A stretch of DNA of 64,000 bases, taken from assembly GCA_902728285.1 (NCBI GenBank), contig CACVBU010000359.1, positions 930,001 to 994,000 of the forward strand, written 5' to 3'. The notes below the pieces were generated by a model. That model saw nothing but the letters and a program-made list of their open reading frames with translations, ran no database searches and was not told where the DNA came from. The translations under genes and the position numbers were made by a program. Below are positions 9,750 to 36,850 of this stretch, piece after piece (position 1 is the stretch's first letter; each line of letters begins with the position of its first letter). Source of the stretch: Clytia hemisphaerica. Taxonomy: Eukaryota > Cnidaria > Hydrozoa > Leptothecata > Clytiidae.

Positions 9750-11335
9750 TGGAGTAAAAAAAACATCTCACGCAAAATTCTTTGCAATGAAAACTTTAAT
9801 TTATCATTCGGGCCAATTTACACTGAATGAGTTAGGGTTGTTGTCCCTGTCCAATGCCGATTATGGAAATCCATTTGCAACGAGAACTTGATTCATTCAT
9901 CATTATGGGTGCATTTATAACGCACACTTGCTCAGCCAGTTCCAACATTTAAACATTTTCAGTTCTTTAAAAGCAACATGGTACCTGCATAAAAGTTTTG
10001 ACTAAAAGCCATCATTGCAAACAGAAAGATGAGGTACAAACAAGGCATCTCACACAAACCTCTTTGCAACGAGAACTGTATTTATTCATCATTTTGGCCC
10101 CGGGGGAGGGGGGTACTTTGGCAAAATGGGTGCCGGGTATGTGCAAGCCATAAGGGTCCCTTTTTCACAGTCTCGAAAGTCTCTCAAAGGGGTACAAATA
10201 CTATTGGAAAGCAAATTGAGTCCCTGTAAAAGGGTCCAAAATTACGTAAATCAAAATTACTTCTCTCGAAGGGTCGTGATTTTCAAAATTTTGGACAAAA
10301 ATGAGTGAAATTGGCCAAAAAGTTTGGGAAAAGTCTCTGTGAGGTCCCAAAAACGCTTATTTTCCCTCTCTCTAAGGGTCGATTTTCGATTTTTGGTTCG
10401 GACATACCCATCACCTCGTAAACCTTGTACCCCGCCCGGGGTTTTGGCCTCATTTATGATCTGCACTGCACAACTGCAGTCTTTCAACAAAATCAGTTTC
10501 TCTTATTAGGGTCTAAAAATATTTCAACTGAAAGCCCTCGTTTTAAACCAGGTCAGAGAAATACAAAAAGCATCTCAAACAAATCCATTTGCAACGAGGA
10601 CTTAATTTGTTTATCATTGGATTCCTTTACACCCTACAACTGCAGTCTTTCAACAAAATCAGTTTCTCTTATATTAGCTTTTCAAAACTTTCAAACTGAA
10701 AGCCCTCGTTGCAAATTTGAAATGAGAAATACAAGAAGTATCTCACACAAATAAATTTGCAACGAGAACTAAATTTATCATTTAGGTTTGTTTATACCTT
10801 AATTACAATGTCCTTTCCACAAAATCAATTCTTAATGTATCTGAACAGAAGATAACCATCATTCAGAGGAAATGAACGAGATACAAAAGGTCTTTCACAA
10901 ATAAATTTGCAACGAAAACTTAATTCGTTTATCATTGAGCTTCTTTACACTGTAAAATTGCAGTCTCAAACTGTCCATTTGCAACGAGAACTTTATTCAG
11001 TCATCATTATGGTTGATTTATAATCTGTCTTAAATCTGCATACAATAAAATTCAACTGGAAGCCCTCGTTGCAAAAAATTCTGGGAGGTACAAAAAGTAT
11101 TTCACACAAATCTCTTTGCAACGAGAATTTGATTAATTCACCATTTTCATTCATTTGAATTCAGTCATCATTTTGAGTTCATTCATAATTTGTATCACCC
11201 AGTCACCCCACACTATTTCCGAAAAATCTAAAAAGATAGTGATCACTCTGAATAATTTCGATGATTTTGATATTTCACACCAACCCATTTACTATGAGAG
11301 CTTAATTCATTCATCATAGGGCTCATATGTAAAGA
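9750..11335. repeat. Hairpin array A (CTCGTTGCAAA arms)
   Basis: Loosely tandem units of about 120-200 bp, each ending TTTGCAACGAGAACTT-ATTCATTCATCAT, with several preceded by a complementary AGCCCTCGTTGCAAA. In the best unit the arms CTCGTTGCAAATTT (10705-10718) and AAATTTGCAACGAG (10753-10766) pair perfectly over 14 bp around a loop with AATACAAGAAGTATC. Other units: arms at 11065-11075/11115-11125, and weaker ones near 10003-10078, 10536-10600 and 10850-10920. Between arms a TACAAAAAGTATYTCACA-like core recurs. A hAT-like MITE interrupts it at 10100-10441. Confidence 0.7.
10100..10441. mobile_element. hAT-like MITE with 8-bp target duplication
   Basis: Imperfect GC-rich TIRs (CCGGGGGAGGGGGGTAC left, GTACCCCGCCCGGGG right) bound a 342-bp element flanked by TTTTGGCC at 10092-10099 and 10442-10449. 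An 8-bp duplication is typical of hAT transposons. No transposase. It sits inside one unit of hairpin array A. Confidence 0.75.
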
Positions 11336-11339
11336 GATT

Positions 11340-12440
11340 CCCTATTGATACATTAGAAGTCCTCGTATTAGATTGTGACGTGTTTCCTGAAACATTACAT
11401 GTAAAAAATGACAAAGTTGGAAAGCAAACTCAAAAGCAACTGGGTTAAACGACTATCATTGATTGAGAAATAACCGCCAATATACATTAGAAATAGCTCA
11501 GTGAGATTGTGAGATGTTTCTTCGAATCTTTCATGGAAAAAATGATAAATTTAGGAAACCACCTCAAAAGCTACTGGGTTAAACGACTATCATTGATTGA
11601 GAAATAACCGCCAATATACATTAGAAGTGCCCAAGTGAGATTGTGAGATGATTCTTCAAATCTTACATGGAAAAAATGATAAATTTAGGAAACCACCTCA
11701 AAAGCTACTGGGTTAAACGACTATCATTGATCGAAAAATGAAGACCAATATACATTAGAAGTACCCAAGTGAGATTGTGAGATGATTCTTCAAATCTTTC
11801 ATGGAAAAAATGATAAATTTAGGAAACCACCTCAAAAGCTACTGGGTTAAACGACTATCATTGATTGAGAAATAACCGCCAATATACATTAGAAGTGCCC
11901 AAGTGAGATTGTGAGATGATTCTTCAAATCTTACATGGAAAAAATGGTAAATTTAGGAAACCACCTCAAAAGCTACTGGGTTAAACGACTATCATTGATT
12001 GAGAAATAACCGCCAATATACATTAGAAGTGCCCAAGTGAGATTGTGAGATGATTCTTCAAATCTTACATGGAAAAAATGATAAATTTAGGAAACCACCT
12101 CAAAAGCTACTGGGTTAAACGACTATCATTGATTGAGAAATAACCGCCAATATACATTAGAAGTACCCAAGTGAGATTGTGAGATGTTTCTTCGAATCTT
12201 TCATGGAAAAAATGGTAAATTTAGGAAACCACCTCAAAAGCTACTGGGTTAAACGACTATCATTGATCGAAAAATGAAGACCAATATACATTAGAAATAG
12301 CTCAGTGAGATTGTGAGGTGTTTCCTCAAACCTTTCATGTAAAAAGTGATAAATTTAGGAAACCACCTCAAAAGCTACTGGTTTAAATGACTAGCAGTGA
12401 TCGAAAATATACATTGTAATTCTCCAATAATTCTTAAAAC
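11340..12440. repeat. 134-bp tandem repeat with imperfect foldback (array F)
   Basis: Eight units at a regular 134-bp period (TGGGTTAAAC at 11441, 11575, 11709, 11843, 11977, 12111, 12245, and the variant at 12379). Within a unit CACCTCAAAAGCTACTGGG can fold on CCCAAGTGAGATTGTGAGATG with mismatches and bulges, giving a hairpin of about 90 nt. Internal units are nearly identical; edge units diverge. No coding frame. Confidence 0.85.
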
Positions 12441-14284
12441 TGGAAACTGGAAACCTCATCAACAAAATCAAACAAACATGTGTAGTTCATTGCATACTTT
12501 TGGGATACATAACTAGCTTTGATTCGTAGAGAAATCAACAGCTAAAAATACCAAAAGAATACTTGACTACTAGAATTGACTACTGTTGCTGTTACACCCA
12601 CCTATTACATTTAAAAGCCCTCATCTTCAAATCTACCTAAATACAGTATTATTAAATTAAAGTACGAGGCTATTGGATAGATAAAATATACATTAAGATT
12701 GCTCCAATATTCCTTAAGGTCCTTCTAAAAAGTTCTTCATGAAAATGAAGACTTTTGTAAAAAGAGTTAAATGCTATTGGTACATATGACTAACAGTAAT
12801 CAACTGCAATACTCCAATAGTTGTTCAAGTCCATCTTGAGACTTTCCATTTAATGGCTGATTCAATATTTCAGAATCTAATGGATAAAAAACATCAAGAT
12901 CATCAAGATTGCTCCAATATTTGGGTTACATAACTAGCTTTGATTGGTAGAGAAATCAACAGCTAAAAGGATAAAAAGAAGTGACTCCTGAAACGACAGC
13001 CAGAGATTCATTGAAGAAAAATCCTACTCGGAACTCTTTGTACAAAAAAAAGCTGCAAAATAAACAGGAAAGTTAGAAAAAAGAAACATTAGGTTATTCC
13101 AATACTACCAAAAATCAAAGCAGTAACAATTCGCTGGAAGTTTTTAAAGTTAGTCTCTAAAGCTCATGAAAACATGAGAAATTAATGATTTAACTTCAAA
13201 AGCTACCTGGTTAGTTGAGCAGCTGTGATATGCAACAATAATTCTTCTCCAATAAACGGAAAATTAGAATTTCTCTAATAGTTTGTTAAGTCCAGTACCA
13301 AAAAATCTCATAGAAAAAAATAACGAAATCAGTTTGTGAGCTTCATAACCTACTGGTGAGCAATTTAACTTTTGGAATTTCTATTTGAAATTAACATGGA
13401 CTAGGTAGCAAATAATGACATGCACTGCACAATTGAAGAACAAGGATGATGCATTTCATTACTCCCATAATGTTTAAAGTCAAAATTTTCATACAAGAAT
13501 GAAGAAATATCAAGGAAAAGACCGTAAAGCCATTTGGATTATATAACTAACAGTTAATTCAACAGTAACAATATAGAGACATCATAATACTCCCAATAAT
13601 TTTTAAAGCCTCATCAAGCGCATTATCATTGAAAACGACGATGAGATGATCGAATTTAAACATTACTGAGGTAGATAACTAAGCAGCTGTTACATCCATT
13701 ATGTTTAAGGTCCTTATCTTCAAGTTTGCCCAAAATAAGTTGCTACACGTAACATTAAAAGTCCTTTTTTTATATTGGAGCTTTCCATGTATAAAAAAGA
13801 TATACCCGAGCCGTTAAGAATAATCCAATATGCGCCTTTTACGCTCTCCAAAAATGAAGAGGCAATTTATAGAAAAACTTTAAAAGTTATTGGTACATTA
13901 TGACTAACAGTCATCAGCTGCAATACTCCAATAGTTATCCAAGCTCATCTTGAAGCTTTCTATTTAAGAATACCAAATTCAAAAGGTAATCAACTTCAAA
14001 ATCTAATGGATAAAAAAAATAGCACCAAGGTCATCAAGAATACTCCAATATTTCTTAAAATCTGTCTTAGAACTTTCCATTTAAGAATGTCAAATTCATG
14101 ATGAAAATTTTAAAATCTAATGGGTTACATAACAAACAGTCATACAAAAATCAACAGTAACAACAGTAATTTAAAAGACCGTTCTGAAACGAATCATCTG
14201 AGAATGACAAATTTAAGACGATGCTTCAAATCCAACAGGGTACCTTAAACGAAAATAAATGATATACTCAAACTGCTGTATAAA
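12441..14284. repeat. Degenerate repeats related to the flanking arrays
   Basis: Motifs such as TTATTGGTACATTATGACTAACAG, here recalled in parts, and CTCCAATAGTTATYCAAG recur every 100-150 bp. TTATTGG and CCAATAGTTAT lie about 40-50 bp apart in several units and are complementary with G-U pairs allowed, so foldback is again possible. Copies are too diverged for a fixed period. No gene seen. Confidence 0.5.
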
Positions 14285-17035
14285 TTTCAACAGTATCAAT
14301 ATAGACATCAGTATACTTCCAAATAATTATTAAAGCCTTATTAAGCGCATTATCATTAACAATGACATTGAAATGGTGGACTTTAAAAAATACTGGGTTA
14401 GATGATTAAGCAGCTGTTACACCCATTATGTTTCAAGTCCTCATCTTCAAATTTACCCCAAAAAGGCCCCCAATAATCGAGCTCAAACTTCACTAAATGA
14501 ATGACAATGTTAATCTATCGATTTCAACAGTAGCAATATAGAGACATCATAATACTCCCAATAATTTTAAAGCCTTATCAAGTGCATTATCATTAACAAT
14601 GACATTGAAATGGTGGACTTTAAAAATACTGGGTTAGATGATGAAGCAGCTGTTACACCCATTATGTTTCAAGTCCTCATCTTCAAATTTACCCCAAAAA
14701 GGCCCCCAATAATTGAGCTCAAACTTCACTAAATGAATGACAATGTTAATCTATCGATTTCAACAGTAGCAATATAGAGACATCATAATACTCCCAATAA
14801 TTTTTAAAGCCTTATCAAGTGCATTATCATTAACAATGACATTGAAATGGTGGACTTTAAAAATACTGGGTTAGATGATGAAGCAGCTGTTACACCCATT
14901 ATGTTTCAAGTCCTCATCTTCAAATTTACCCCAAAAAGGCCCCCAATAATCGAGCTCAAACTTCACTAAATGAATGACAATGTTAATCTATCGATTTCAA
15001 CAGTAGCAATATAGAGACATCATAATACTCCCAATAATTTTTAAAGCCTTATCAAGTGCATTATCATTAACAATGACATTGAAATGGTGGACTTTAAAAA
15101 TACTGGGTTAGATGATGAAGTAGCTGTTACACCCATTATGTTTCAAGTCCTCATCTTCAAATTTACCCCAAAAAGGCCCCCAATAATTGAGCTCAAACTT
15201 CACTAAATGAATGACAATGTTAATCTATCGATTTCAACAGTAGCAATATAGAGACATCATAATACTCCCAATAATTTTTAAAGCCTTATCAAGTGCATTA
15301 TCATTAACAATGACATTGAAATGGTGGACTTTAAAAATACTGGGTTAGATGATTAAGCAGCTGTTACACCCATTATGTTTCAAGTCCTCATCTTCAAATT
15401 TACCCCAAAAAGGCCCCCAATAATTGAGCTCAAACTTCACTAAATGAATGACAATGTTAATCTATCGATTTCAACAGTAGCAATATAGAGACATCATAAT
15501 ACTCCCAATAATTTTTAAAGCCTTATCAAGTGCATTATCATTAACAATGACATTGAAATGGTGGACTTTAAAAATACTGGGTTAGATGATGAAGCAGCTG
15601 TTACACCCATTATGTTTCAAGTCCTCATCTTCAAATTTACCCCAAAAAGGCCCCCAATAATCGAGCTCAAACTTCACTAAATGAATGACAATGTTAATCT
15701 ATCGATTTCAACAGTAGCAATATAGAGACATCATAATACTCCCAATAATTTTTAAAGCCTTATCAAGTGCATTATCATTAACAATGACATTGAAATGGTG
15801 GACTTTAAAAATACTGGGTTGATGATGAAGCAGCTGTTACACCCATTATGTTTCAAGTCCTCATCTTCAAATTTACCCCAAAAAGGCCCCCAATAATTGA
15901 GCTCAAACTTCACTAAATGAATGACAATGTTAATCTATCGATTTCAACAGTAGCAATATAGAGACATCATAATACTCCCAATAATTTTTAAAGCCTTATC
16001 AAGTGCATTATCATTAACAATGACATTGAAATGGTGGACTTTAAAAATACTGGGTTAGATGATTAAGCAGCTGTTACACCCATTATGTTTCAAGTCCTCA
16101 TCTTCAAATTTACCCCAAAAAGGCCCCCATAATTGAGCTCAAACTTCACTAAATGAATGACAATGTTAATTTATCGATTTCAACAGTAGCAATATAGAGA
16201 CATCATAATACTCCCAATAATTTTTAAAGCCTTATCAAGTGCATTATCATTAACAATGACATTGAAATGGTGGACTTTAAAAATACTGGGTTAGATGATT
16301 AAGCAGCTGTTACATCCATTATGTTTCAAGTCCTCATCTTCAAATTTACCCCAAAAAGGCCCCCAATAATTGAGCTCAAACTTCACTAAATGAATGACAA
16401 TGTTAATCTATCGATTTCAACAGTAGGAATATAGAGACATCATAATACTCCCAATAATTTTTAAAGCCTTATCAAGTGCATTATCATTAACAATGACATT
16501 GAAATGGTGGACTTTAAAAATACTGGGTTAGATGATTAAGCAGCTGTTACACCCATTATGTTTCAAGTCCTCATCTTCAAATTTACCCCAAAAAGGCCCC
16601 CAATAATTGAGCTCAAACTTCACTAAATGAATGACAATGTTAATCTATCGATTTCAACAGTAGCAATATAGAGACATCATAATACTCCCAATAATTTTTA
16701 AAGCCTTATCAAGTGCATTATCATTAACAATGACATTGAAATGATGGACTTTAAAAATGCTGGGTTAGATGTTTAAGCAGCTGTTACACCTATTATGTTT
16801 CAAGTCCTCGTCTTCAAATTTACCCCAAAAAGGCCCCCAATAATTGAGCTCAAACGTCACTAGATGAATGACAATGTTAATCTATCGATTTCAACAGTAG
16901 TAATATAGAGACATCATAATACTCCCAATATTTTTTAAAGCCTTATCAAGTGCATTATCATTAACAATGACATTGAAATGGTGGACTTTAAAAATACTGG
17001 GGAAGATGGCTAAGCAGCTGTTACAATAATCATGT
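14285..17035. repeat. 237-bp tandem satellite, about 12 copies (array G)
   Basis: Units start (TTTCAACAGTAG) at about 14285, 14522, 14758, 14995, 15232, 15469, 15706, 15942, 16178, 16415, 16652 and 16889. Central copies differ by a few bases; the first and last are more diverged, as expected under homogenisation. Each unit holds TTTTTAAAG and CTTTAAAAA about 65 bp apart enclosing ATTATCATTAACAATGACAT, so it can form a long imperfect hairpin. No frame is conserved. Confidence 0.9.
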
Positions 17036-18100
17036 TTAAGGTCCTCATTTTTAAGTTTGCCTCAAAATAAGTTGCTCAAGAATTGAATGATGCCTACACG
17101 CAACATTAAAAGTCCTTTTGTGTAAGAATAAAAAGGTTCAAGAAGAGGCTAGTGCATAGATAAAATATACATTAAGATTGCTCCAATATTGCTAAAGGTC
17201 CTTCTAAAAAGTTCTTCATAAAAAATGAAGACTTTTGTAAAAAGACTTTACATTTACAGGCTATCGGTACATGAGTAACGGTAATCAATTACATTACTCC
17301 AATAGTTATTCAAGTCCATATTGATACTTTCCATTTAATGGCAGATTCAATACTTCAGAATCTAATGGATAAAATAGATGTAAAATAGATACATCAAGGT
17401 CATCATGATTGCTCCAATATTTCTTGGAGTCTTTCTCTTACGCTCTTCTAAAAATAAAGAGCACAAAACGAAAGATTTCAAAAGTTATTGGCAGAGATAA
17501 CTAACAATCACCAACTGCAATACTCCAATAGTTATTCAAGTTCCTCTTGAAAATTTCGAACTTTAGAATGTCACATTCAAAATGTAATCGACTTTAAAAG
17601 CCAATGGATAAAAAAGATACATCCAGATCATCATGTTTGCTCTAATATTTGTTTAAAGTCCGTCTTTTACGCTCTTCTTAAAAAAATGAAGAGTCGCGAA
17701 TACAAAGTTTGTTGGTACAGATAACAATCACCAACTGCAATACTCCAATAGTTATCCAAGTTCATATTGAAGCTTTCTATTTAAGAATGGCAGATTCAAA
17801 TTGAGACTTCAAAATCTTATGGATAAAAAAGACATCCAAATGAATGCTCGCCAATAGTTATTAAAGTCCCATCTTCAAACTTCCCATTTAAGAATGGCAA
17901 GGTCAAACTGAAGGACTTCAAATTCTAATGTGTTACATGACAAACAATCATTAGAAATCAACAGCAACTCCAATAAGATTTAAAAGACCGTTCTGAAACG
18001 AATCATCAGAGAATGACAAATTCAAGACGATGCTTTAAATGCTACTGGGTAAACTATGAAAATATGATATCCTCGACTGCTGGATAATTTCTTGAATAGC
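17036..18100. repeat. Degenerate hairpin-type repeats following array G
   Basis: The same motifs as in 12441-14284 return (CTCCAATAGTTATTCAAG, GCTCCAATATT, AAAGTTATTGG), in irregular units. Sequence from 18100 to 18560 shows no repeat or gene that I can support. Confidence 0.5.
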
Positions 18101-18563: not shown

Positions 18564-18681
18564 TGTAATGTTTTCTACGGAAAGACACCGTTTTTTTGCC
18601 AGTAGTTGTTTATACAACTTTTGTCTAGTTTAAATTTGCCACTACTGGCTAAAACCGGGGTATTTCCGTAGAAAACTTTAC
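18564..18681. mobile_element. Palindromic MITE-like element
   Basis: Left arm GTAATGTTTTCTACGGAAA and right arm TTTCCGTAGAAAACTTTAC are complementary, and the interior continues with CCAGTAGT / ACTACTGG. This makes a near full-length foldback of about 118 bp. No obvious target duplication. Confidence 0.6.
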
Positions 18682-18917: not shown

Positions 18918-19194
18918 CGAGTTCATGTATTTGCACTTTTGAGGACGGTAAAGTGACTGAAGCGATTTGGAAAAACCCGAAGTTCTGCCTCGCAAAATCG
19001 AGGACGGTAAAAGTGATGATTTACCGTCGTCGTCAGTTGGTCATGATCTAGTCAAATTATAATCTTATCGTCTCCGTCGCTGAAAAACACAAATAATTCG
19101 TGGTTGCAAATGCAACTCGTAACTCGTAACTCGCAACTCGTATATTATCATATCACTATCTCCGTCGCTGAAAAACACACATACATAAACTCGG
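18918..19194. mobile_element. TA-flanked MITE (GCGAGTTTATGTAT family), copy 1
   Basis: TIRs begin GCGAGTT(T/C)ATGTATTTG and end ATACATAAACTCGG, flanked by TA on both sides, as for Tc1/mariner-type elements. The interior carries the family hallmarks GAGGACGGTAAA.GTGACTGAAGCG and TTACCGTC. This copy has an internal duplication of the CCGTCGCTGAAAAACAC segment. Other copies: 39281, 41387, 48250, 50544 and 52149. Confidence 0.75.
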
Positions 19195-19560
19195 TATTAT
19201 ACAAGGCGGTGATTACATAAAGTACTAAAGCCTGGGCGCTTAACCATGATAAACAAATTAACGAAAAATCCTGTAAGTCTTCAAGAGTGAGCATGAACAC
19301 TTCGATCACATAAATTACTCAATCCTGCAAAAAGGTATAAAATAACTGCAAATTGTCTTCTTGAAAAAGAATCTACACGATATTTTAATATCTACGTATA
19401 GACGCTTAACCAAGAAAACTAGAATGTAGTATTGCAGACAACTGACTGACATCCAGAACATTGAATGGTCAAACAATTTAAAACAAAAAAATCACGTTGT
19501 CTTCATGGCTAAGATCATACAAGGCGGTGATTACATAAAACATCCGCGTCTTATATCTTC
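19195..19560. repeat. First units of hairpin array B
   Basis: Contains GATTACATAAA cores and CGCTTAACCATGAT / TTCATGGCTAAGATCAT arms characteristic of the array at 21400-24300. Array B therefore starts here and is split by the nested element at 19870-21312. 19560-19869 has nothing recognised. Confidence 0.55.
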
Positions 19561-19869
19561 ATTTCTAATTCTTCATTTGAATGACCAAAAGCAGAAGGAC
19601 CGTAACTTCTTATAGATTTTCAATAGTTCTTGACTTTCAAGTCGAAAACTTTCATGATATTACGAAAGCAATTGACATGGAGTTCCCAAACAAATTGATA
19701 TTAAACTATGTATACGTTTTGAATCTTGTTTGGTCATTTTTGGTTCTTTTCATATTTGAAGTCTAGAATTATTGCTTTGATGTTATTATTTTGTGCAATC
19801 TTTCCCCTCATTAACGTTCCTGTGACCGATAAATTTTGGTTATTTTCGACTGTCCTGTCTTCGTAATTA

Positions 19870-21399: not shown

Positions 21400-24300
21400 C
21401 GACACGAGACTTTTAATCTACTCTAAGCTTCAAAACAGGGACGACACTGAGTGTTCATGGATAAGCATGACAACACTTCGGCTACATAAAGTATCCTAGC
21501 ATTGACGCTTAGCCATAAAAAGACTCCATCCAGTCTGGATCAGAGGTGCATAATTAAACAATTTAAAACACAGAAGATACAAGATGCTCACGGCTAAGCA
21601 TATCTAGACATCGGCTACATGAAGTACTCACGCCTGAACGCTTAGCCATGGAAACTCTGTCATGTCTGGATCAGAGATGATGAAAAAATCAACGAAAAAG
21701 CTGCGAAGTCCTCAAGGCTAAGTATCATTGAAGCCTTTGATTGCATAAAGTATCCACGTCTGGATTCTTAGCCATGATAAAACACCGCTATGTTTTGACA
21801 ACGAGTAATCAAAAATAAGTTACAAAATAACTACACGTTCTTTTCATGGTTAATCGTTGAACGCTTAACTATGATAAAAACTCCTTCGTGTCTGGATCAA
21901 AGGGGAGCAAATAAATTTCAAACAAAGAAGTCACGAAGTCATCATGGCTATGCATCAAAACTTTAACTACATAAAGTACACGCGTCTTGATTCTTAACCA
22001 TGATAAAAACACCGTCATGTATGGATCAGAGGTGAAAAACAATTTGAAACAAATAAGACACATTGAGACGCTGAGTGTTCATGGCTAAACTTCGTTCAAG
22101 AGATTACATAGAGTATTTTAGCCTGGACGCTTAGCCATAACAAAACTCCGTCGTGTCTGGAGAGGAGAAGGATTAATCGAAAAAGTTTGGATCAGAGGTG
22201 AAAAAACAATTTGAAACAAAAAAGACACGTTGAGACACCGAGTGTTCATGGCTAAACTTCGTTCAAATGATTACATAAAGTGTCTTCGTCTGGATGCTTA
22301 ACCATGATTAAAAACCCAGTCATTTCTGGACCCTTAGGCATGATTTAAAACTCAGTCTTGTCCGGACCAGCGATGATAAACAAATTAACGAAAAATCCAG
22401 GATGTTTTCATGACTGAGCATCTACAATCCTGCTACGTAAAGTATCCTAGCCTGGACGCTTAGCCATGATAACCCCATCAAGTCTGGATAAGAGGTGATT
22501 GAAAAAATCGAAACAGAGAAGATACAAAGTCATCATGGCTAAGCATATCTAGACATCGGCTACATAAAGTAGCCTAGCCTGGACGCTTAGCCATGGAAAC
22601 TCTGTCATGTATGTATCAGAGATTATGCAAAAATCAACAAAGAATCTGTGAAATCCTCATGGCTAAGCATCGTTGAAGACTTTGATTACATAAAGTATCC
22701 ACGTCTGGGTTCTTAGCCATGATAAAACACCATCATGTCTGGATAAGCGAGTAATCAAAAAAAGTTATAAAATAACTGCACGATCTCTTCATGGTTAATC
22801 ATTGTTGAGGATATTTGTTATTATAAAGTATCCACGTATAGACGCTTAACCATGATAAAAAGTCTTTCGTGTCTGGATCAAAAGTGATCAAGAAATTTTA
22901 AACAAAAAAGTCGCGAAGTCATCATGGCTAATAATCAATACTTAAACTACATAAAGTATACGGGTCTTGATTCTTAGCCAAGATAAAAACTCCATCATGT
23001 TTGGATCAAAGGTGAAAAAACAATTTGAAACAAAAAAGACACGTTGAGAGACTGATTTTTTTTTTGCTAAGATCGTTGAAGACTTTGATTACATAAAGTA
23101 TCCACGTCTGGACGCGCTTAGCGAGAATTAAACTCCGTCGTGTCGGGATCAGCGAGTAATCGAAAAATGAACGAAAAGTCAAGTAAGTCATCATGGCTGA
23201 GCATCAGCATCCCGGCTACATAAAGTATCCTAGCCTGGATGCTTAGCCATGATAAAAACTCCATCAAGTCTGGATTAGGGATAATGAAAAAATCAACGAA
23301 AAAGCTGCGAAGTATCTTCATAGCTATATCGTTGAAGACTTTGATTGCATAGTATCCACGTCTGGGTTCTTAGCCATGATAAAAACACCATCATGTCTGA
23401 ATAAGCGAGTAATCAAAAAAATTATAAAATAACTGCACGTTCTCTTCATGGTTAATCATTATTGAGGATATTTGTCATTATAAAGTATCCACGTATAGAC
23501 GCTTAACCATGATTAAAACTCCTTCGTGTCTGGACCAAAGTGGAGCAAAAAAATTTCAAACAAAGAATCAAGAAATCGTCATGGCTAAGCATCAAAACTT
23601 TAACTACATAAAGTACACGCGTCTTGATTCTTAACCATGATAAAAACTCCGTCATGTTTGGATCAGAGGTGAAAAAACAATTTGATACAAAAAGACACGT
23701 TGATAACTGAGTGTTCATGGCTAAGCATCTTCCAAGAGATAACATAAAGTATCTTCGTCTGGATTCTTAACCATGATAAAAACTCCGTCATGTTTGGATC
23801 AGAGGTGAAAAAACAATTTGAAACAAAAAAGACACGTTGAGACACCGAGTGTTCATGGCTAAACTTCGTTCAAATGATTACATAAAGTATCTTCGTCTGC
23901 ATGCTTAGCCATGATTAAAAACCCAGTCATGTCTGGATCAGCGATGTTGAAAAAATCAGCGAAAAAGCTGCGAAGGCTGAGCATCTACATTCCAGCTAAA
24001 TAAAGTATCCCAGCCTGGATGCTTATTAGCCATGGAAACTCTCTCATGTCTGGGTCAGAGATGATGAAAAAATCAACGAAAAAGCTGCAAAGTCCTCATG
24101 GCTAAGCATCGTTGAAGACTTTGATTACTTAAAGTATCCACGTCTGGACGCTTAGCCATGATAAAACTCCGTCGTGTCTGGATCAGCGAGTAATCAAAAA
24201 ATTAACGAAAAAACCAGTAAGTCATCATGGCTGCGCATCAGCATCCCGGCTACATAAAGTATCCTAGCCTGGACGCTTAGCCATGATATTAACTCCATAA
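21400..24300. repeat. Hairpin array B, about 22 units (TCATGGCTAAGC arms)
   Basis: Units averaging about 130 bp each contain TCATGGCTAAGC, a core ATTACATAAAGTATCC, then CGCTTAGCCATGA. In the unit at 24096-24161 the outer 12 bp pair perfectly (24096-24107 with 24150-24161). Inner pairing continues (GTT/GAC, AGAC/GTCT, UAC/GUA), so about 66 nt folds into one hairpin. Linkers of about 65 bp carry CTCCGTC.TGTCTGGATCAGAGGTGA. Units vary, and in several both arms vary (CTTAACCATG, TTAGCCATA). Frames here are short and not conserved. Confidence 0.8.
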
Positions 24301-24497
24301 GATTTCAAACGAAAAAGCACGTGGATGTGGCTCAAAGTACTCACGTGATTTACAATATTTGCAATAAATGAAGTTTCAGCGATCCTAATCCTCACAAAGA
24401 CTCTAACTGCCTTTACCTTCTACGCTGCAAAAAGTGAAATCACTCAAGTTTTCTTTTACACAAATGACATGGAAAATTGACGTCAGATTTTTTTATC

Positions 24498-26379: not shown

Positions 26380-27420
26380 AGGAACCACGGAGTCACTATA
26401 GCTAATTATCAAAAGACCTCAGCTACATAAAGTACTCACGTCTCGACCCTTAGCAATAATGAGACCTCAAGACGTGTCAGATTCACGATGAAATGAAAAT
26501 GCTTAATGCTAATCTGAGGACACTCGACTTTTACAAAGATTTTAAACCACCTTCAATGTCACCCAGAATTCAACACTGAAGGATCGCAGGACAACGAGTC
26601 TTTGCAATTTTCAAATATGCAGTGAGCTTTAAAACGTATAAATCACGTCGTCTTCGTGGCTAAGATCATACAAGGCATAAAATACCAAACCTGAACGCTT
26701 AGCCATGAAAGCTACACTGGAGTTGCAGACAACTTCTTCACATCCAGATCATTGGGTCAAACAATTCTGATTAAAAAAAGACACGTTGTCATCATGACTA
26801 AGATCTAAAGGCGATGATTACATAAAGTATCCACGTATAGATGCTTAGCCATGAAAACTACACTGGAGTTGTAGACAACTGATTCACGTCCAGACCAGTT
26901 GATGGTCAAACAATTTAAACCAAAATCACGTTGTCTTCATGTTTAAGAGATTATTCAAGGCGGTGATTACATAAAGTATCCACATATAGAAACTTAGCCT
27001 TGAAAAGTACACTGGAATATTGGGTGGGTCCCTAAACAATTTAAACCCAAGTCTCGTGGTATTTATGGTTAAGATCATACAAGGGGGTGATTACATAAAA
27101 TACCAAGCCTGAACGCTTAGCCAAGAAAACTACACTGGAGTTGCAGACAACTAACTTACATCCAGACCAGTGGGTGGTCAAACAATTAAAAACAAAGTCA
27201 CGATGTCATCATGGCTAAGATTATACAAGCCCGCGATTACATAAAATACCAAGCCTGGATGCTTAGCCATGACTTTTTCCTCATGTGTAATACTGAATTT
27301 TAATCTGGTTTCACAATGTCAAGTTGTCTTCATAGCTTAGCACCATTTAGCCTTTGTTATATAAAATATCCTAGCCTGGATGCTTAGCCATGAAAACTAT
27401 GTAGTGATTACAGTCAGGTT
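26380..27420. repeat. Hairpin array B, second block (about 7 units)
   Basis: Same architecture as 21400-24300: TCATGACTAAGATC or TCTTCGTGGCTAAGATC, GATTACATAAAGTATCC, then GCTTAGCCATGAAA. Linkers differ (ACTACACTGGAGTTGCAGACAACT), so it is a sub-family. It is separated from the first block by the C-rich repeat and the piggyBac-like element. Confidence 0.7.
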
Positions 27421-27832: not shown

Positions 27833-27835
27833 CAA

Positions 27836-27952: not shown

Positions 27953-29469
27953 AATTATTGACCTTATGCTGAACCTAAATTTTCTCAATTTCAAGCAATT
28001 TAGGGGTCAAAGTAGTAAAAATTGGGTATATTGTCTAAATTACTTCAATTACATCCTATAAATAAGAACAGGATAAGAACAATTTGAGGCTCAAAATGCC
28101 AAAAAAATTAGCCGAGCAACAGAAAGAACAGTCAAGCCTCAGAAAAAAATCATTTTTCAAAAAGCAAGGATAAAAAAAACCCTTAACAAAAGGGCGATAC
28201 AGCGTAAAGCCATCGTGACTGGTTGAAGAAGCATGCTTCTTGAAATGAATGTGCTTTTCTCATCCAGCCAGGAGAGCTCCACTTTCTTTTAAGCTCAGAG
28301 GATTTATAATGTCTCTCAACCTCCAAAATATATTTTAATGATGAGCGATACACCTTCAGAGAGTCATCGTGGCTCTACGAAGAAGCGCTTTCTTGGAATG
28401 AATGTGCTTTTCCCATCCAGCCAGAAGAGCTCCGCTTTATTTGAAACCTATAATGTCTCTTAACCTCCAAAATATATTTTAATGATGAGCAATACACCTT
28501 CAGAGAGCTATCGTGGTTAAGACAGAAAAACGAAACCCATCCATTAAACGAATGGCCTTTTCTAATCTAGCCAGGAGAACTCAGCTATGTTTTGCCGGAA
28601 AATTTCTAATTTCTTTTCAGCATCATTAAAACAGTTTAAAAAAGCGAAATGTTAAAGAGTCATCGTGGCTAAAATATAAAAGGAAGCCATTCGTTAAAAA
28701 GAATACGTCTCTTTCTTGATAGCCAAGAGGACTCGTTTTTTGCTTCTTTTTTTATGGACAGTCCTAATTGTGTTAGGCTTAAAGTCATTTGACCGTTACA
28801 TCGTTGAGCCCTCGTGGCTTATCTTCAAGAAAAAGTTTTTCATGAATTGAAACCGTTTCTTCAAATTTTAGCCAAGAAAACTCAACTTAGACTTCCATGT
28901 CTTTAGAATTTTTGCTTGAACTAGCGGAAGATTTTGAATTTTCTTAATCTTTATGCGTAACGATGAGGCTCTTGCAATCTTGTCAGTGGATCTCAACTAT
29001 GCTTTGCCAGAATATACCTAATATCTTAAAACCATCATGGCAGAACTCAAAACATGGCAGAAACATACTGATAAGAATGATAACTAATGGGGAACTAATG
29101 CTTTGAAAACAGACTGTTGCAAATACTTATTAGCCTAGCCTGTACGAAAATCTTTTTTCAGAAAGCAAAGAGAAAAAACCTAATAAAAGGTCTTAAGTCA
29201 TAGAGTCGTCGTGGCTAAATAAAAAAAGGATGCCATTCATTAAAAAGAATACGCCTTTTCCATTAAAGCCAATAGAACTTGTATTTTACTTTCTTTAAGG
29301 ACATTCGCCTATACATCATCGAGCCTTCATGGCTCAACTTCGAGAAAGGCTTTCCCTTGAAAAGAAATCGTTTCTTCAAATTTTAGCCAAGAAAACTCAA
29401 TTAAGACTTCGATGTCTTTTAGAATCTCTTCCTGGACTAGAGAAAGATTTTAATTTTTTTTCTAATGAA

Positions 29470-30262
29470 AAGAAACCGTCTCTTCCTTGTTGGGTCAGGG
29501 GCAAATGAAGGTGAGACTGGCTGTGTTCGTAACACAATTGAAGTATGGTTCGAACTAAAATGAAAAAATTAACTAAGTCTTACAAAAATATCTAAGTTGA
29601 AAATAAATTGAAGTCTAATTTAATTGCATTGAGAATATTGAATTTGAAGTTATAATTGAAGTGTCTATGTAAAAAGTTTAAGTTGAAGAAAAATATAAGT
29701 TGAAATGGCTAAGTCCTAGCAGTGCAAAAAGGCAACACCCAGGCAAAATGGCAGACAGGAAAAGCAAACACTGAAAAGAAAAAGCAAAACTTACCAGCTA
29801 GCCTGGGTATGAAAACTGTGTGAAAAATGTGTGACTAAGTCATATTTGAATTGAATGACTAAGTCTTGTTGAAAGTTGAAATGTTGAAAAATTGATGTTC
29901 ACCCTTCAAGTGCTCCTTTTGGAATGAATGCAAAACTGAGAATGGAACTGCTATTTATCAACTTGTGTATAAAATACAGACCAAAAATTTATAAATGAAA
30001 AATGCAGAATAAAGCAAAGTTGACATATACTATTTGAAATTTATTGAATAAATTGACATAAATTAACATAAATTAACTGAAAATGTCCAAAAGCACTGAA
30101 AATCCCAAAAATGCAAAAACAGAGAACAAAACACAGACCAGACAGAAAAAATGGCCAAAAAGGGCAAAACACAGAAAAAACTGAAAAGGCCAGAAAGACA
30201 AAAAACTGAAAACTGCAGCTGATGCTGTGACTTCCTCCCTTCCTCACTTCCTCGAATAGTAA
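29470..30262. other. Unclassified insertion in hairpin array C
   Basis: Array motifs stop at about 29470 and resume at about 30263. The block contains repeated GAATTGAA / AAGTTGAA words, and an A-rich half with many CAGAAAA and CCAAAAA words. No TIRs or coding domain seen. Confidence 0.4.
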
Positions 30263-31697
30263 AATATTTTGAGTTTTTTTAAATCTGTATGCGTAACGAT
30301 TAAGGGTATTCCAATCTAGCCAGTGGATCTCAACTATGCTTTGCCCGAAGATAACTCAACTTAAGCTTCCCTGTCTTTTAGAATCTCTTCCTGGACTAAA
30401 AAAAGACGACTTCACGAAAAAGAATACGCCTCTTTCATGATAGCCAAGAGAACTCGTCTTTTACTTTGTTTTAGGGACACTCCTAATTGTGTTAAGCTTA
30501 AAGTCATTTAGCCGTTACATCATCGTGCCTTCGTGGCTTAACTTCGGAAAAACCGTTCCATGAAAAGAAACCGTTTCTTCAAATTTTAGCCAAGAAAACT
30601 CAACTTAGACTTCCGTGTCTTTTGGTATCTTTTGGTAACTTTATTTGCTTGAACTAGCGAAAGATTTTGAGTTTTCTTAAAATCTGTATGCGTAACGATT
30701 AAGGCTCTATCAATCTAGCCAGTGGATCTGAACTATGCTTTACCAGAAGATTCCTTGTATCTTAAAGCCGTCATGGCAGAGCTCTAAATTCAAATTTTGT
30801 TATCAGGACATCCATTGTCACAGTATTCCATCAATTGATTCAAATCTTATTGCCTATTTGTTTCATCCAGTATTCAGTAGTAAACTTCAAAACTTTATTT
30901 CACTCCAGATATCCAGTGTCCAAGAAAAAAGTTGTGAAAGTTACAGATAGAAATAAAACAAATCATTTCCCTTATGCTTCATACGAACAGTCAAAAAAGA
31001 GCGAAAATAAAAAAGTCATCGCCGTGGCTAAAATATAAAAGGAAACCATTCGTTAAATAGAATACGCCTCTACCATGATAGCCAATAGAACTCATTTTTT
31101 GCTTTTTTTATGGACATTGCTAATTGTGTTAAGCTTTAAAGTCATTTAGCCTATACATCATTAAGCCCTCGTGGCTGAACTTAGAGAACTACTTTCCCAT
31201 AAAAACAAACGGTTTCTTCAAATTCTAGCTAAGAAAACTCAACTTAGACTTCCATATCTTTTAGAATCTCTTCCTGGACATAATTAAAGATTTCGAGTTT
31301 TCTTGAGATCTTTATGCGTAACGATGAGGCTCTTCAGAAAAAGATTACGCCTCTTTCATGCTAGCCAAGAGAACTCATTTTTTTGGCTTTTTCAATGACT
31401 TTCCTAATTGTGTTAGGCTTAAAGTCATTTGGCTTATACATCATTAAGCCCTCGTGGCTTAACTTAAGAAGAAAGCTTTCCATGAAAAGAAAACGCCTCT
31501 TTCATGCTAGCCAAGAGAACTCGTTTTTTTCTTTTTTTAAGGACATTCCCACATTCCCAATTGTACTAGGCTTAAAGTCATTTGGCCGTGACATCATTGA
31601 GCCCTCGTGGGCTTCCAATGAAAAGCTTACGCCTCTTCCATGCTAGCCAAAAGAACTCGTTTTTTGCTTTTTTTTAAGGACATTCTTAATTGTGTTA

Positions 31698-31954
31698 AGG
31701 GCTACATACACTACACAATATATTGTCAGGCAATATATTGATGATATATTGCTGAATGTCGACAATATATTGAAAAGGTGTCCGTAATATATTGTCAGCT
31801 CGATTTGCAATATTCCAACAATAAAGGGGGATTATTTACAGAAAGAAAATTCCTTTTTATAATAGAGTACCGGTTGTTTACTTCGTACATTACGGTCCGC
31901 AAACCATATTGTCGAATATTCTTCGTCAATATATTATGTAGTCTAAGTAGCCCT
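31698..31954. mobile_element. MITE with AGGGCTAC TIRs and ATATATTG-rich ends
   Basis: AGGGCTACATACACTACACA at the left matches the inverse of the right end (TGTAGTCTAAGTAGCCCT) with few changes, and CAATATATTG repeats fill the subterminal zones. Length 257 bp. It lies within an array C unit. Target duplication not clear. Confidence 0.7.
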
Positions 31955-32209
31955 GAGCTGAACTTTTAGAGAAATACTTTCCATGAAAAGAAGCCGTTTT
32001 TTCAAATTTCTGCCAAGAAAAGTCAACTTAGGCTTTCATGTTGTTGGAATATGTTTGGAAACTTTGAACTTATTTTTTACTATTTGACTTACACACTCAA
32101 AGAATTCTCTCATGAGTCATGAGTAGTTTTTATTCAAAAGATGAGCTCGACTTAGAGAGATTGATTTTGGATAAGCCAGATGCAAAGAAAAATCGTACCT
32201 ATGATTCTA

Positions 32210-35030
32210 ACATTTAATGCAAAAAGACCTCGTAGCAGTCAATTCATTTATAGAGACCTCGTCGAAGGTTCCCAGATGCCTGTGCACTTAATGCATGGAC
32301 GCCTTTGAGAATCCGACGACGAGACCCTCCTTTAAGAAAAATCGTAGCTATGATTATAGCTCCTCATTGCATTTAATGCATGAGTTTTTGAGAATCCAGA
32401 GCGACGAGACCTGCCTCGGGAACTTGTTACTCACTCAGACTACACCTAAGCATCCTAGCAAAGATACAGATGGAACAAAATATTCACGATATAGAGGCCT
32501 CGTCGAAGGTTCCCAGATGCCTGTGCATTTAATGCATGGACCTTTGAGCATCCGGTAACGAGACCTTCCTTGGGAGCTTGCTTTTTCATTGTCTAAACCC
32601 TTCAGTGAAACATAGCAGAAAAAGCTGGAACAATAATATGTTTAAAGCAAAGAGAATTCGTAGCGAGGGCTCTCAAAAACCACCATTACATTTAATGCAT
32701 GTGGGTTTGAGAATCCCGCGACGAGACCTTCCATGGGAGCTTGTTGGACCTACCTCCGGGTGCCCCGGTGGAGGTCCTATGAATTAACCCATGTCCGTTC
32801 GTCCGTTCGTCCGTCCGTCTGTTACCAGCTTTTCTCAGGATTGGCTCATTAGTTTTTTTTGATTTTTGGCACAATGATGCAAAATGGTAATGCCCGAAAT
32901 GTGACGGAGCCCGATTTTCGAAAAAAAATCATTTCCGGCCGAAAATGCCGGAAATATGCCGGAAAAACCGGTTTTCTGGCACTTTCTCAAGATTTCATCA
33001 TTAGTTTTTTCTGATTTTTTGCAAAAAGATGCGTATTAGCAATGCCCAAAACTTGGCCGAGTCCGATTTTTGAGAAAAAATCTTTTCCGGTCGCAAATGC
33101 CGGAAATATGCCGGAAATCGCCATTTTTGCAGATTTTCATCGGACTTTTTCCTTATATTTCGTTGTTTTTTCACACAAAAACATTATTAATAGCAATGCC
33201 CACCATGAAGCATGGTTCAATCGTCAATAGAACTGAGTTTTGAAGCCGGAACTTTCTAAAAATCGCCGGAGCAGCCCATTTTCGCCTGAAAAACGGTATT
33301 TCTTGATTTTCTCGAGCTGTACTTTATATTTTTTTATGAAATTTTGCACACTGATGCAAAATGATAATACCTAAAATGTGAGGAAGCCTGATTTTCGAAA
33401 AACATTTTTTTTCGGCCGAAAAAGCCGGAAATATGCCGGAAATACTGGTTTTTTAGCATTTTCTCGAGATTTTATCATTAGTTTTTTCTGATTTTTTGAA
33501 CAAAGATGCGTATTAACAATGCCCAAAACATGGCCGAGTCCGATTTTTGAGAAAAATTTTTTTCCGGCGGAAAATGCCTGAAATATGCCGGAAATCGCCG
33601 TTTTCTGGGTTTTTATTGGGCTTTTTCCTTTTAAATAGTTGTTTTTTCATTCCAACACATTATTAATAGCAATGCCCACCATCAAGCATGTTTCAATTTT
33701 CAATAAAATTGAATTTTGAAGCCGGAACTATTTAAAAATCTCCGGAACAACCTATTTTCGCTGGAAAGACAGTATTTCTTGAATTTCTCGAGCTGTACTT
33801 TATATTTTTTTATGAAATTTTTCACACTGATGCAAAATGATAATATCTAAAATGTGACGGAGCTCGATTTTCGAAAAACATTTTTTCCGGCCGAAAATGC
33901 CGGGAATATGCCGGAAAAACCGGTTTTTTGACATTTCCTCGAATTTTCATCTTTTGATTTTTTCTGATTTTTTGCAGAGAGATGCGTATTCGCAATTCTC
34001 AAATCATGGCCGAGTTCGATTTTTGAGAAAAATTTCTTCCGGTGGAAAATACCGGAAATCGCCATTTTTGCAGATTTTCATTGAATTTTTTCCTTATATT
34101 TCCAATTTTTTTCACACAAAAACATTATTGACAACAATGCTCACCATCAAGTATGATTCAATTGCCAATAAAACTGATTTTTGCGACCAGAACTTTCTAT
34201 TTATTTTTTCCTTACAACTCTTTTCCTCTCCCCCCCCCCCCCCATCAACAATCAATGATGAATTTTTTGCGTTATGCATTTTCTGACTGATTTTTTTCAT
34301 TTTTCTCCTCGCATTGCTATCTAACTCTCATCATCAGGTAGGTCCATTCAGCATCTAGCTTGTTTCTTTTCTTTTCTCTTTGTATACACCCTATAGAGAA
34401 AAGTCTACACCAAAACATCCTAGCAATGATACAGATAAAACGAAATATTCAAGATATAGAGACCTCGTCGAAGGTTCTCAAATGCCTGTGCACTTAATGC
34501 ATGGGCCTTTGAGAATTCGGCAACGAGACCTCTTATGGGACCTTATTACTTTTGCATTGTTTAAACCCTTCAGTGAAACATCGCAGAAAAAGCTAGAACA
34601 ATATGTTCAAAGCAAAGAGAATTTGTAGCGACGGCTCTCAAAATCCACCATTACATTTAATGCGCATGCGTTTTTGAGAATCCCGCGACGAGACCTTCCA
34701 TGGGAGTTTGTTACTTTTTACATTGTATACACCCTATAGAGAAAAGTCAATTTCAAAATATCCTAGCAAAGATACAGATACAACAAAATATTCAAGAGAT
34801 ATAGACCTCGTCGAAGGCTCCCAGATGCCTGTGCACTTAATGCATGGACCCTTTGAGAATCCGGCGACAAGACCTTCCTTAGGAACTTGTTACTTTTTCA
34901 TCAACTCTACCCTTCAGTGAAACACCGTGTAATATGACAAGACAAGAGAAATCATCTCTATGTCTTCCAATCCCAGTCCAATTAATACATGGATCTTTGT
35001 GAATCCGAGCGACGAGACCTTCCTTGGAAA
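32210..35030. repeat. Hairpin array E (CTCGTCG / CGACGAG arms)
   Basis: At least seven foldback units near 32230, 32350, 32490, 32650, 34460, 34630 and 34800, and a weaker one near 34945. Each ends GAGAATCC.GCGACGAGACC. Two 5'-arm types alternate, ACCTCGTCGAAGGTTCCCAG and CGTAGCGAGGGCTCTCAAAA, and both can pair with the nearly constant 3' arm. The apex is the near-palindrome TGCACTTAATGCATG. Interrupted by the element at 32745-34346. Confidence 0.7.
32745..34346. mobile_element. TIR element filled with a 470-bp tandem repeat
   Basis: TGGACCTACCT (32745-32755) and AGGTAGGTCCA (34336-34346) are perfect 11-bp inverted ends. AGCTTGT occurs just outside on the left (32738-32744) and 10 bp beyond on the right (34357-34363); array E continues on both sides. 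The interior holds a (CGTTCGTC)-type run and about three copies of a 470-bp unit rich in GCCGGAAATATGCCGGAAA. No transposase seen. Confidence 0.65.
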
Positions 35031-35615: not shown

Positions 35616-35880
35616 GGGCTCTTCCAGAAAAAAATTGTACATTGGGGTGGAGGATATTTTGTCCTGGGGGTAGCAAAAAATCATCAAAGTTTGCCTTGTC
35701 CGGGGGTAAATTTGCTCTGTCCGGGGGTAATTTGGGTAGTCCGGGGGGTCAGCAGAAGCTTGTCCGGGGGGTAAAACCTACTGTCCGGGGGGCCAAAAGT
35801 CACCCTGTTCGGGGTAAATCACTAAAAATTGTTATATCCTCCACCCCCCCCCCATGTACAATTTTTTTCTGGAAGAGCCC
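35616..35880. mobile_element. MITE with GGGCTCTTCCAGAAAA TIRs
   Basis: Long TIRs: GGGCTCTTCCAGAAAAAAAT plus GTGGAGGATAT at left, ATATCCTCCAC plus TTTTTTTCTGGAAGAGCCC at right, flanked by ATT on both sides. The interior has at least five TCCGGGGGGTA-type short repeats. A second, 5'-truncated copy is at 56625-56808. The open frame here is TIR and repeat sequence, not a gene. Confidence 0.8.
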
Positions 35881-35994
35881 ATTGTTGTAAATAACAATGT
35901 GATTAATGGCTATTAATTAACAAACCTGGTCTGGAAGTCGGGTTATTTTGAATTTCGAGGCTGATCTTTCTTTTGCTCATTGTTTTAAGTCACA

Positions 35995-36100
35995 TTACCC
36001 AGCTGGCACACAGCGATGTTTCAACGTTCATCTAGCGTTATATGGACGTTGTGAACGTTAGATAAACGTTGAAACAACGTTGTGTGAAGGGTGAAATTGT
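35995..36100. repeat. CCCAGCTGGCACA / AACGTT repeat
   Basis: CCCAGCTGGCACACAGCG followed by several CAACGTT / AACGTTG boxes in both orientations. A second copy is at about 45470-45530 and a fragment at about 44728. Dispersed repeat of unknown class. Confidence 0.55.
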
Positions 36101-36229
36101 GGGAAGTCTTCATAGTGGAATGACAACGTGACGTCACTCTGTTAAACGATTGTAGATTACCCATAGATTTGCAGTCTTTAGACGGAATGTGTAATGTCCA
36201 AAACTAACACTTGTTATCCTTGGAATTAT

Positions 36230-36850
36230 TTAACGGTAAAATCAGAAAACCACCATGGCGAACATTTGGTCAAGGCGTTACATATATAAAGCATCGCCAT
36301 CCCTAAGTAGTTGCCATGATGGACTTCATTCAATATTCATGCTGACAATCAATCAATTTGGAAACAAGCTATATTTGTAGCTAGATTCACTTAAAATTAA
36401 CTTTTCTCTCCTTCATAAATCCAAGACAACTCTTTACAGAAGGCATTTTTAATTTATGTCAAAAACTCTCTTTATTATCTTTTGAAAGTTAAAATTAGAA
36501 AACTATCATGGCGAATATTTGGTCAAGATGTTACATTCATAAAGCATCAGTATGGCCAAGTATTTGCCATGGCGGACTTCATTCAATAATTTTGCCGGCA
36601 ATCAATTAATTTTGGAAACAAGCGATATCAAAGTTACAGTCTCGCTAGAAATTATAGCCTTTCCCTATCCAAGACAAACTCCTTACAGAAAGGCGTTTTC
36701 AATTCTCGCTTTCATTATCTTTTAATATTAAAAATCAGAAAACCACCATGGCGAAGATTCGACCGAGGCGTGCATACATAAAGCATCATCATGGCCAAGT
36801 ATTTGCCATGATGGACTTCGTTTGATATTTTTGCTGACAATAAATTAATT
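36230..36850. repeat. Hairpin array D, three units of about 245 bp
   Basis: Three units, each with CCATGGCGAA(C/T/G)ATT, then ACATANATAAAGCATC, then AGT(A/T).TTGCCATG. In unit 2, 36507-36524 (CATGGCGAATATTTGGTC) faces 36554-36571 (GGCCAAGTATTTGCCATG): 15 Watson-Crick and 3 G-U pairs with no mismatch, plus an inner GATG/CATC. Linkers share TGGACTTCATTCAAT and TTGGAAACAAGC. 36851-37388 has nothing recognised. Confidence 0.75.

Follow-up and report, generated by a model that had tools for sequence, protein, structure and literature searches.

Hairpin families of the window

The stretch considered here (the window) comprises 64,000 nucleotides of the Clytia hemisphaerica genome, positions 930001-994000 of contig C254 in a genome set of 417 Mb and 951 contigs. 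Between 9.7 and 36.9 kb it is built of consecutive tandem families of 70-90 nt foldbacks, recognized with Tandem Repeats Finder and by reading of the sequence (Table 1), and it is presented here as part of a candidate locus of small-RNA precursors. An earlier interpretation made from the letters (the sequence-only reading) had placed tandem foldback families at these positions, which are borne out; the family names used below, A, C (134 bp), F (237 bp) with its degenerate relatives, B, E, D and P, differ from the letters of that reading. The computed features of the locus are hairpins beyond chance, an overall one-strand polarity, covariation in families A and E, conservation of hairpins over linkers in A, B and E, kinship between several families, and repeated blocks.

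Table 1. Hairpin families in the window (window positions)
Feature	Position	Strand	Characteristics
Family A hairpins	9722..11134	minus	arms CTCGTTGCAAA / TTTGCAACGAG, apical loop GATACTTnTTGTA
Family A matches	9722-9800, 10002-10082, 10528-10607, 10696-10775, 10849-10925, 11056-11134	minus	
Family C, 134-bp tandem array	11370..12409	minus	single 83-nt foldback per unit; strand preference unclear (4/8 units)
Degenerate serial units, kin of the 237-bp family	12410..14283	minus	ends like CCAATAG ... TATTGGAG; part fold well
Family F, 237-bp tandem array	14284..17067	minus	11.8 copies, single 78-nt foldback per unit
Degenerate serial units, like 12410-14283	17068..18100	minus	
Family B, three weak units	19171..19581	minus	
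Family B main array	21440..24306	minus	period ~127-136 bp; arms CATGGCTAAGCATC / GATGCTTAGCCATG, apical loop GATACTTTATGTA
Family B second array	26381..27410	minus	
Family E hairpins	28203..32028	minus	arms CTTGGCTA / TAGCCACGA; break at ~29.5-30.25 kb
Family D hairpins, first group	32247..32732	minus	arms GGTCTCGTCG / CGACGAGGTCTC
Family D hairpins, second group	34453..35026	minus	
Family P, three hairpins	36243..36831	minus	arms CATCATGGCAAAT / TTCGCCATGGTGG

The family P apical loop, GATGCTTTATGTA, is exact in one of the three hairpins and carries one mismatch in each of the other two. The arrays are broken up by dispersed repeats, and the degenerate stretches form hairpins only in part. 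Coding tandem repeats were ruled out, as the arrays do not contain any open reading frame (ORF) of at least 150 amino acids.

Extent of the locus

The locus is larger than the window. On a second contig, C749, the segment 54-94.6 kb is collinear with the window from 9.7 to ~45 kb and holds the families in the order A, C, F, B, E, D, P; the collinear pieces are ~65-98% identical (short pieces and most of the 237-bp array aside). Searches with arm patterns yield further sets of A at C749:93, 171-173 and 252 kb, of E at C749:66-72, 143-149 and 222-227 kb, and of B at C749:78-82, 156-159 and 231-236 kb, positions that define three blocks ~77-80 kb apart. A second set lies on C254, with B at 867-873 kb and E at 873.6-874.7 kb. 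Piecewise matches join C254:893-909 kb to C749:274-291 kb, and C254:909-913 kb corresponds to C749:94.6-98.6 kb. The sequence itself was read on C749 outside 104-154 and 184-274 kb, and on C254 from 890 kb rightward. The number of hairpin units differs between the two collinear copies of the locus, by blocks of ~77-80 kb. The two contigs may be either two haplotypes or duplicates: C254:866-967 kb and C749:63-284 kb are collinear with very different numbers of hairpin blocks, a possible case of structural haplotypes.

Additional same-strand tandem families with 131-243 bp units and z-scores of -2.2 to -5.4 are present at C749:74626-75668, 277718-278680, 278865-280609 and 280787-281192, as well as at C254:904165-906100. 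The first of these arrays matches window 27.55-27.82 kb at 83-89% and is picked up by the family E covariance model (see below) with E-values of 0.0005-0.0014.

Folding compared with shuffled sequence

The folding of each unit was compared with 150 dinucleotide shuffles of that unit, using z < -2 as the criterion. On the minus strand, this level is reached by 11/11 units of F, 22/27 of B, 10/16 of E, 5/6 of D, 3/3 of P and 6/8 of C, together with 4/10 of A (whose anchor also took in 3' arms) and 7/24 of the degenerate units; the random-window control gives 1/60. Units therefore beat their shuffles in most families, in the very comparison that the sequence-only reading had put forward. Its picture of one 27-kb stretch in which each unit folds holds for most families and has to be amended, as the degenerate stretches fold only partially and the locus is larger. 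Because the units are inverted repeats, the plus strand folds too, with z < -2 in 11/11 (F), 17/27 (B), 6/16 (E), 3/6 (D), 3/3 (P), 2/8 (C), 3/10 (A) and 1/24 (degenerate units).

Counts over the whole region point in the same direction. Folded hairpins starting in 9750-36850 number 129 on the minus strand vs 81-93 in five shuffles, and 97 on the plus strand vs 49-56; the flanks are also somewhat above their shuffles. The region holds 49 strand-neutral inverted repeats with a score of at least 14 in 31 kb; a single shuffle has 3, and 30 kb of flank have 17. Raising the score to at least 20 leaves 4 in the region and 5 in the flank, hence part of the inverted-repeat excess is a general trait of this genome.

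Tandem arrays with units of 90-260 bp provide a comparison with ordinary repeats of the same contigs. Four arrays of an inserted element (described below) were kept out of both groups, two of these four having z <= -2. Among the arrays inside the locus, on C254 and C749 together, 15/29 display z <= -2, vs 0/11 outside, with mean z values of -2.33 and 0.16, respectively; the locus strand is the more stable one in 24/29 locus arrays. Ordinary satellites are expected not to fold beyond their shuffles, and the locus arrays depart from this expectation.

Strand polarity and hairpin geometry

The minus-strand fold is the more stable one in 11/11 units of F, 21/27 of B, 14/16 of E, 5/6 of D, 8/10 of A, 21/24 degenerate units, 2/3 of P and 4/8 of C. 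Covariance models were built for A, B and E only and applied to the window plus 28 loci (335 kb) with a threshold E-value of 0.01. They define 185 distinct places on the locus strand, which is minus on C254 (65 places, 53 of them in window 9750-36850) and plus on C749 (120 places). On the opposite strand, 71 of the 72 places overlap a locus-strand place. No place below this threshold was found in C254 890-900 or 994-1054 kb, nor in C749 54-64 or 284-365 kb. Polarity in the window is mainly minus-strand, most families preferring this strand, and direct tandem hairpin repeats on one strand, the arrangement of hp-CG4068-type loci, are present. An excess of G+T on the locus strand (0.51-0.56 in C749 locus pieces vs 0.49-0.50 in flanks) fits a putative transcription of that strand; along C254 it stands out across A-F and B, is slight in E and disappears in D and P.

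The geometry of the hairpins resembles that of microRNA (miRNA) precursors. PMC13137736 gives the MirGeneDB criteria as at least 16 of ~22 nt paired and a loop of at least 8 nt. A 22-nt stretch with at least 16 pairs and an inner loop of at least 8 nt occurs in 181/212 locus-strand model matches vs 305/1060 shuffles, or 77/93, 35/46 and 69/73 in the three match lists, which overlap, so that most matches display the pairing and loop called for by MirGeneDB. In the 184/212 matches that fold without branches, median stems are of 26-31 pairs and median spans of 71-87 nt. Such a stem size and pairing would suit processing by RNase III enzymes.

Pairing constraint and conservation

Covariation and arm-swap tests were made against shuffles that leave kinship between units in place. 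In family E (23 units from two loci), 94.5% of the cells are paired and 29 double changes are observed vs 13.0 in shuffles, 0/500 of which are as high; in family A (15 units), 10 double changes are observed vs 5.1 (1/500). When arms are swapped between units, a hairpin's own arms pair better in E (0/5000 with 23 units; 1/5000 for the upper stem alone), A (140/5000, 15 units) and B (4/2000, 27 units), and the effect is weaker on the other strand (75/5000, 698/5000 and 120/2000, respectively). Compensatory evolution is hence detected by columns and arm swap in A and E, by arm swap but not by columns in B, and not significantly in D.

Where pairing deviates from Watson-Crick, G.U exceeds A.C on the locus strand, with cells in the ratio 69:16 (E), 40:4 (A) and 14:5 (B), the structures behind these counts being derived from the locus strand itself. 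The strand-neutral inverted repeats of this region, a set that also contains tandem copies and unrelated repeats, show a weaker ratio of 131:89; strand-biased mutation could add to the wobble excess. The hairpins are also better conserved than their surroundings. Pairwise identities of hairpin, 5' flank and 3' flank are 0.67, 0.44 and 0.45 in E (23 units), 0.75, 0.52 and 0.52 in A (12 units), and 0.70, 0.60 and 0.46 in B (18 units). Taken together, the hairpins are very probably under selection at the RNA level.

It is improbable that the arrays are satellites shaped at the DNA level by unequal exchange and arm-to-arm conversion, devoid of RNA function, their strand asymmetry stemming from biased mutation. 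A G+T skew would indeed turn C-G pairs into wobble-compatible ones without selection, and such satellites would account for young arrays that lack a hairpin-specific constraint, for the missing column covariation of B, for the unclear strand preference of P and of the 134-bp array, and for the strong inverted repeats of the flanks. Arm conversion, however, would be expected to restore perfect repeats rather than wobble pairs; folding in the remaining arrays of these contigs does not exceed that of shuffles (0/11 at z <= -2, against the 15/29 above), the A, B and E hairpins are conserved above their linkers, and the 185 model places lie on one strand. A uni-strand cluster of PIWI-interacting RNAs (piRNAs), in which the repeats would fold by coincidence, is a far less probable option still. 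It would agree with the uni-directional skew, the richness in repeats and the inserted dispersed repeats, but not with pairing that has outlasted deep divergence in A and E, nor with hairpins being the conserved part; piRNA precursors are not known to need hairpins.

Kinship of the families

The apical loops of A, B and P, taken from hand-typed consensus hairpins, are in register and share 12/13 (A-B), 11/13 (A-P) and 12/13 (B-P) positions; a match to the B loop at 12 positions or more is found in 12 of 2,000,000 random 13-mers. The arms are far less alike. Ungapped, loop-anchored identities of the two arms are 12/33 and 6/34 for A-B, 3/33 and 4/34 for A-P, and 8/36 and 5/35 for B-P. B and P have arm cores in common (ATCATGGC.AA and GCCATG.TG) at another spacing, with 0/1000 shuffles, so that it is in A that a preserved loop contrasts most clearly with altered arms. 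The A/B/P loop is absent from E and D.

Similarity between families was also assessed against hairpin-preserving shuffles and listed when reached in at most 20/1000. The counts are 14 for A-E, 4 for B and the E2 subtype of E, 0 for B-P, 0 for E-E2, 5 for C and 10 for F with the degenerate unit (Fd); a count of 0 for E2-Fd was unexpected and is left without interpretation. On the full hairpin, A-B, B-E, D-E and C-F, among others, fall short of this level of similarity. Local alignment finds GAGTTT..TC.TGGCTAA common to B and E, only the E2 subtype reaching the 4/1000 mentioned above, and the E model picks up A and B units at rough E-values of 0.0005-0.01. By eye, a unit at C749:68610 is intermediate between D and E, and the ends of C and F are alike (CCCAGTA ... 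TTGGG), both families joining the degenerate unit.

Several families thus look like diverged relatives. The arms had been described as unrelated, which is right superficially, yet several families are kin and A, B and P have their apical loop in common. That the hairpin units belong to a single large locus and have diverged serially is well supported by the polarity, the hairpin-over-linker conservation, the compensatory changes of A and E, the A/B/P loop and the D-E intermediate.

The transcript could also be a long structured non-coding RNA, its hairpins remaining uncut as a repeated scaffold for proteins, for instance a double-stranded-RNA binder or those of a nuclear body. All that polarity, covariation and conserved hairpins require is pairing at the RNA level, the apical loop is the most alike part among A, B and P, and three arms are without a convincing target (see below). 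Such a scaffold is nevertheless rather unlikely, as the size and pairing of the hairpins are like the geometry of primary miRNA transcripts, and E and D lack the common loop.

Targets and known RNA families

Selected arms were searched genome-wide. With at most one mismatch, all matches of an 18-mer of the A 3p arm (9/9) and of a 21-mer of the B 5p arm (26/26) lie on the locus strand of C254 and C749. With at most two mismatches, a 21-mer of the E 5p arm yields 91 matches, 38 on these two contigs and 53 elsewhere, the backwards control giving 0. All 8 exact and 20/22 one-mismatch matches are on C254/C749; those elsewhere comprise two with one mismatch and 51 with two (44 in four repeated sequences, 7 single). 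Examined by eye, neither of the two outside one-mismatch sites is a convincing target, one of them preceding an ankyrin-repeat-like exon. Arms complementary to a coding target, as expected of a hairpin RNA (hpRNA) locus, were hence not found for A 3p, B 5p and, at up to one mismatch, E 5p. Ten of the two-mismatch E 5p matches are spaced by ~1250 bp at C508:2054714-2065980, which may represent an unrelated tandem repeat or a possible target. In matches between 97 hairpins and the flanks, the best 25 of 286 include none in the left 9.7 kb of the window, where kinase genes lie.

The confinement of the arms bears on a mobile origin. Foldback transposons or miniature inverted-repeat transposable elements (MITEs) accumulated in tandem, or hammerhead retrozymes, have next to no likelihood. 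The units do hold inverted repeats, and an isolated foldback at 31.7 kb of the window behaves as a dispersed element; against this, the A and B arms were matched only on C254/C749, and E almost only at up to one mismatch. Hammerhead retrozymes were rejected, as neither the window nor 10 related loci gave a hammerhead match in Rfam searches. Permissive Rfam searching gave 7 matches with E-values of 1.9-4.8.

As to the small-RNA machinery of this genome, a match to the Dicer_dimer domain is partial, with one internal stop. A 21-mer that we take to be miR-2022 has one exact match, plus one at 1 and one at 2 mismatches, which agrees with a cnidarian origin. A let-7 22-mer has no genome match at up to 2 mismatches, and the let-7 model gave none among 57 scored of 45,158 candidates, nor any match in the control genomes. 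A search of the genome for the GFP family was likewise negative, in the control genomes as well.

Neighbouring and inserted elements

To the left, C254:913201-939737 (window 1-9737 and 16.8 kb leftward) is occupied by an insertion of 26,537 bp that has terminal inverted repeats of 36 bp (CACTCTCAG...) and an apparent 2-bp duplication. It splits a family A unit, lies outside the hairpin locus proper, and has its empty site in the collinear C749 copy. Its coding content comprises two protein-kinase ORFs (window 2392-3555 and 6688-7830) plus two related long ORFs, for which the pieces searched gave no Pfam match over the cut-off; the whole resembles a giant DNA transposon carrying kinases as cargo. 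Within it, window 7991-8742 is a 110-bp tandem array (6.8 copies, minus-strand z -2.3) with frames of 118-134 residues through part of it.

Inside the family A array, a dispersed repeat occupies ~10100-10440; other contigs carry dozens of copies of it at ~78-86% identity. Isolated, non-tandem strong foldbacks are found at 18565-18681, 31699-31801 and 36007-36086; the second one is probably a MITE, since full or partial copies of 92-98% identity exist at C254:1013.7 kb and at C749:310.6 and 336.9 kb. To the right of the locus, two copies at 37400-37640 and 38100-38280 have, by eye, an end that may be that of a short interspersed nuclear element derived from a transfer RNA (a GGTTCGATTCCC-like box, minus strand), and other tandem arrays are located at 58478-63415, 49103-49554 and 40273-40619, with minus-strand z of -1.6 to 1.1.

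Proposed origin and function

The preferred interpretation, to which a probability of about 0.6 is assigned, is that the locus gives rise to one or several one-directional transcripts of miRNA-like or hpRNA hairpins, serving as small-RNA precursors; minus-strand transcription, processing to small RNAs and any target are what we infer. A very large non-coding locus, of which the region is one side, would be read from the minus strand of the window, its transcript(s) folding into a string of 70-90 nt hairpins. RNase III enzymes of the Drosha or Dicer type would excise a ~22 nt duplex from each hairpin, in the manner of polycistronic miRNA clusters or tandem hpRNA loci. Unequal exchange may multiply the units into arrays, which would diverge afterwards; selection at the RNA level would hold the arms complementary, often via G.U, and preserve the apical loop in A, B and P, while arm sequence would drift between families. 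Whole sets of families would then have been duplicated in the ~77-80 kb blocks.

Several observations weigh against this interpretation. Family P is on average more stable on the plus strand, the 134-bp units (C) exhibit no strand preference (4/8), and just 7/24 degenerate units fold well. Column covariation is not significant in family B (3 double changes vs 1.3, 61/500 shuffles, 24 units), nor is the arm-swap test for the 10 window units of E (659/2000) or 5 units of D (335/2000). Variation within the young C and F arrays is not significantly lower in the hairpin than in the rest of the unit. No Rfam family reaches its gathering score in the window or the 10 related loci, which leaves the locus without similarity to a described miRNA family. 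Finally, leaving aside the 51 two-mismatch E matches, the three arms A 3p, B 5p and E 5p have no convincing near-full-length target outside the locus; cnidarian miRNAs are reported in PMC10368294 to rely on near-full-length target sites. The small-RNA precursor cluster suggested by the sequence-only reading agrees with the hairpin geometry and is still a proposal as regards function.

A more speculative, quite unlikely extension of the precursor interpretation is that of a diversifying repertoire of hairpin guide RNAs: well over 100 units, arms changing under a pairing constraint, and a loop kept for recognition in some families would make an arms-race locus and not one of housekeeping miRNAs. 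Because the tested arms lack a near-perfect target outside the locus, such heritable guides would be directed at changing non-self sequences (viruses, selfish elements) or work in cis on the locus itself.

Should the hairpins be processed, the locus would represent a miRNA-like cluster of very large size and diversity in a phylum with mostly singleton miRNAs reported, and would illustrate how new hairpin families originate by tandem expansion, compensated arm divergence and block duplication. It makes testable whether loop recognition is decoupled from arm divergence, and whether cnidarians have an evolving small-RNA repertoire. Even if they are unprocessed, the locus would be a good case of RNA-level selection in satellite-like DNA.

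Comparison with known systems

No report of a comparable locus was found in the literature searched, the limited coverage of which does not prove absence. The kinds of locus nearest to it are the miR-430 clusters and tandem hpRNAs such as hp-CG4068. The mammalian C19MC cluster reportedly represents a lineage-specific, repeat-driven expansion of hairpins. The same is reported of the mammalian Sfmbt2 cluster (PMC3212979), and the present locus is similar in this respect. It differs from both in the animals concerned, in the apical loop common to several families, and in the duplication of family blocks.

In Drosophila, the hp-CG4068 and hp-tHMG clusters consist of tandem hairpins of one transcript, the copy number of which varies among close species (20, 9, 14 and 10; PMC10317233). 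The tandem hairpin array is a shared trait. The Drosophila hairpins are reported to yield Dicer-2 small interfering RNAs against a coding target, whereas here three arms have no convincing outside target, and the units are far more numerous and diverse.

Zebrafish miR-430 forms two clusters of 57 and 10 genes, listed as polycistronic (PMC2427041 and PMC10368294). It resembles the present locus by its many clustered hairpins of miRNA size, with copies in the tens. Unlike miR-430, whose members are grouped by a common seed, at least seven families with differing arms follow in series here, and the whole family set is repeated in large blocks.

Cnidarian miRNAs, which belong to the same phylum as this locus, are reported overwhelmingly as singleton families in PMC7935066. 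The stem geometry of the hairpins described here fits that of cnidarian miRNAs, unlike which they are organized in a very large multi-family cluster (PMC7935066 and PMC13137736).

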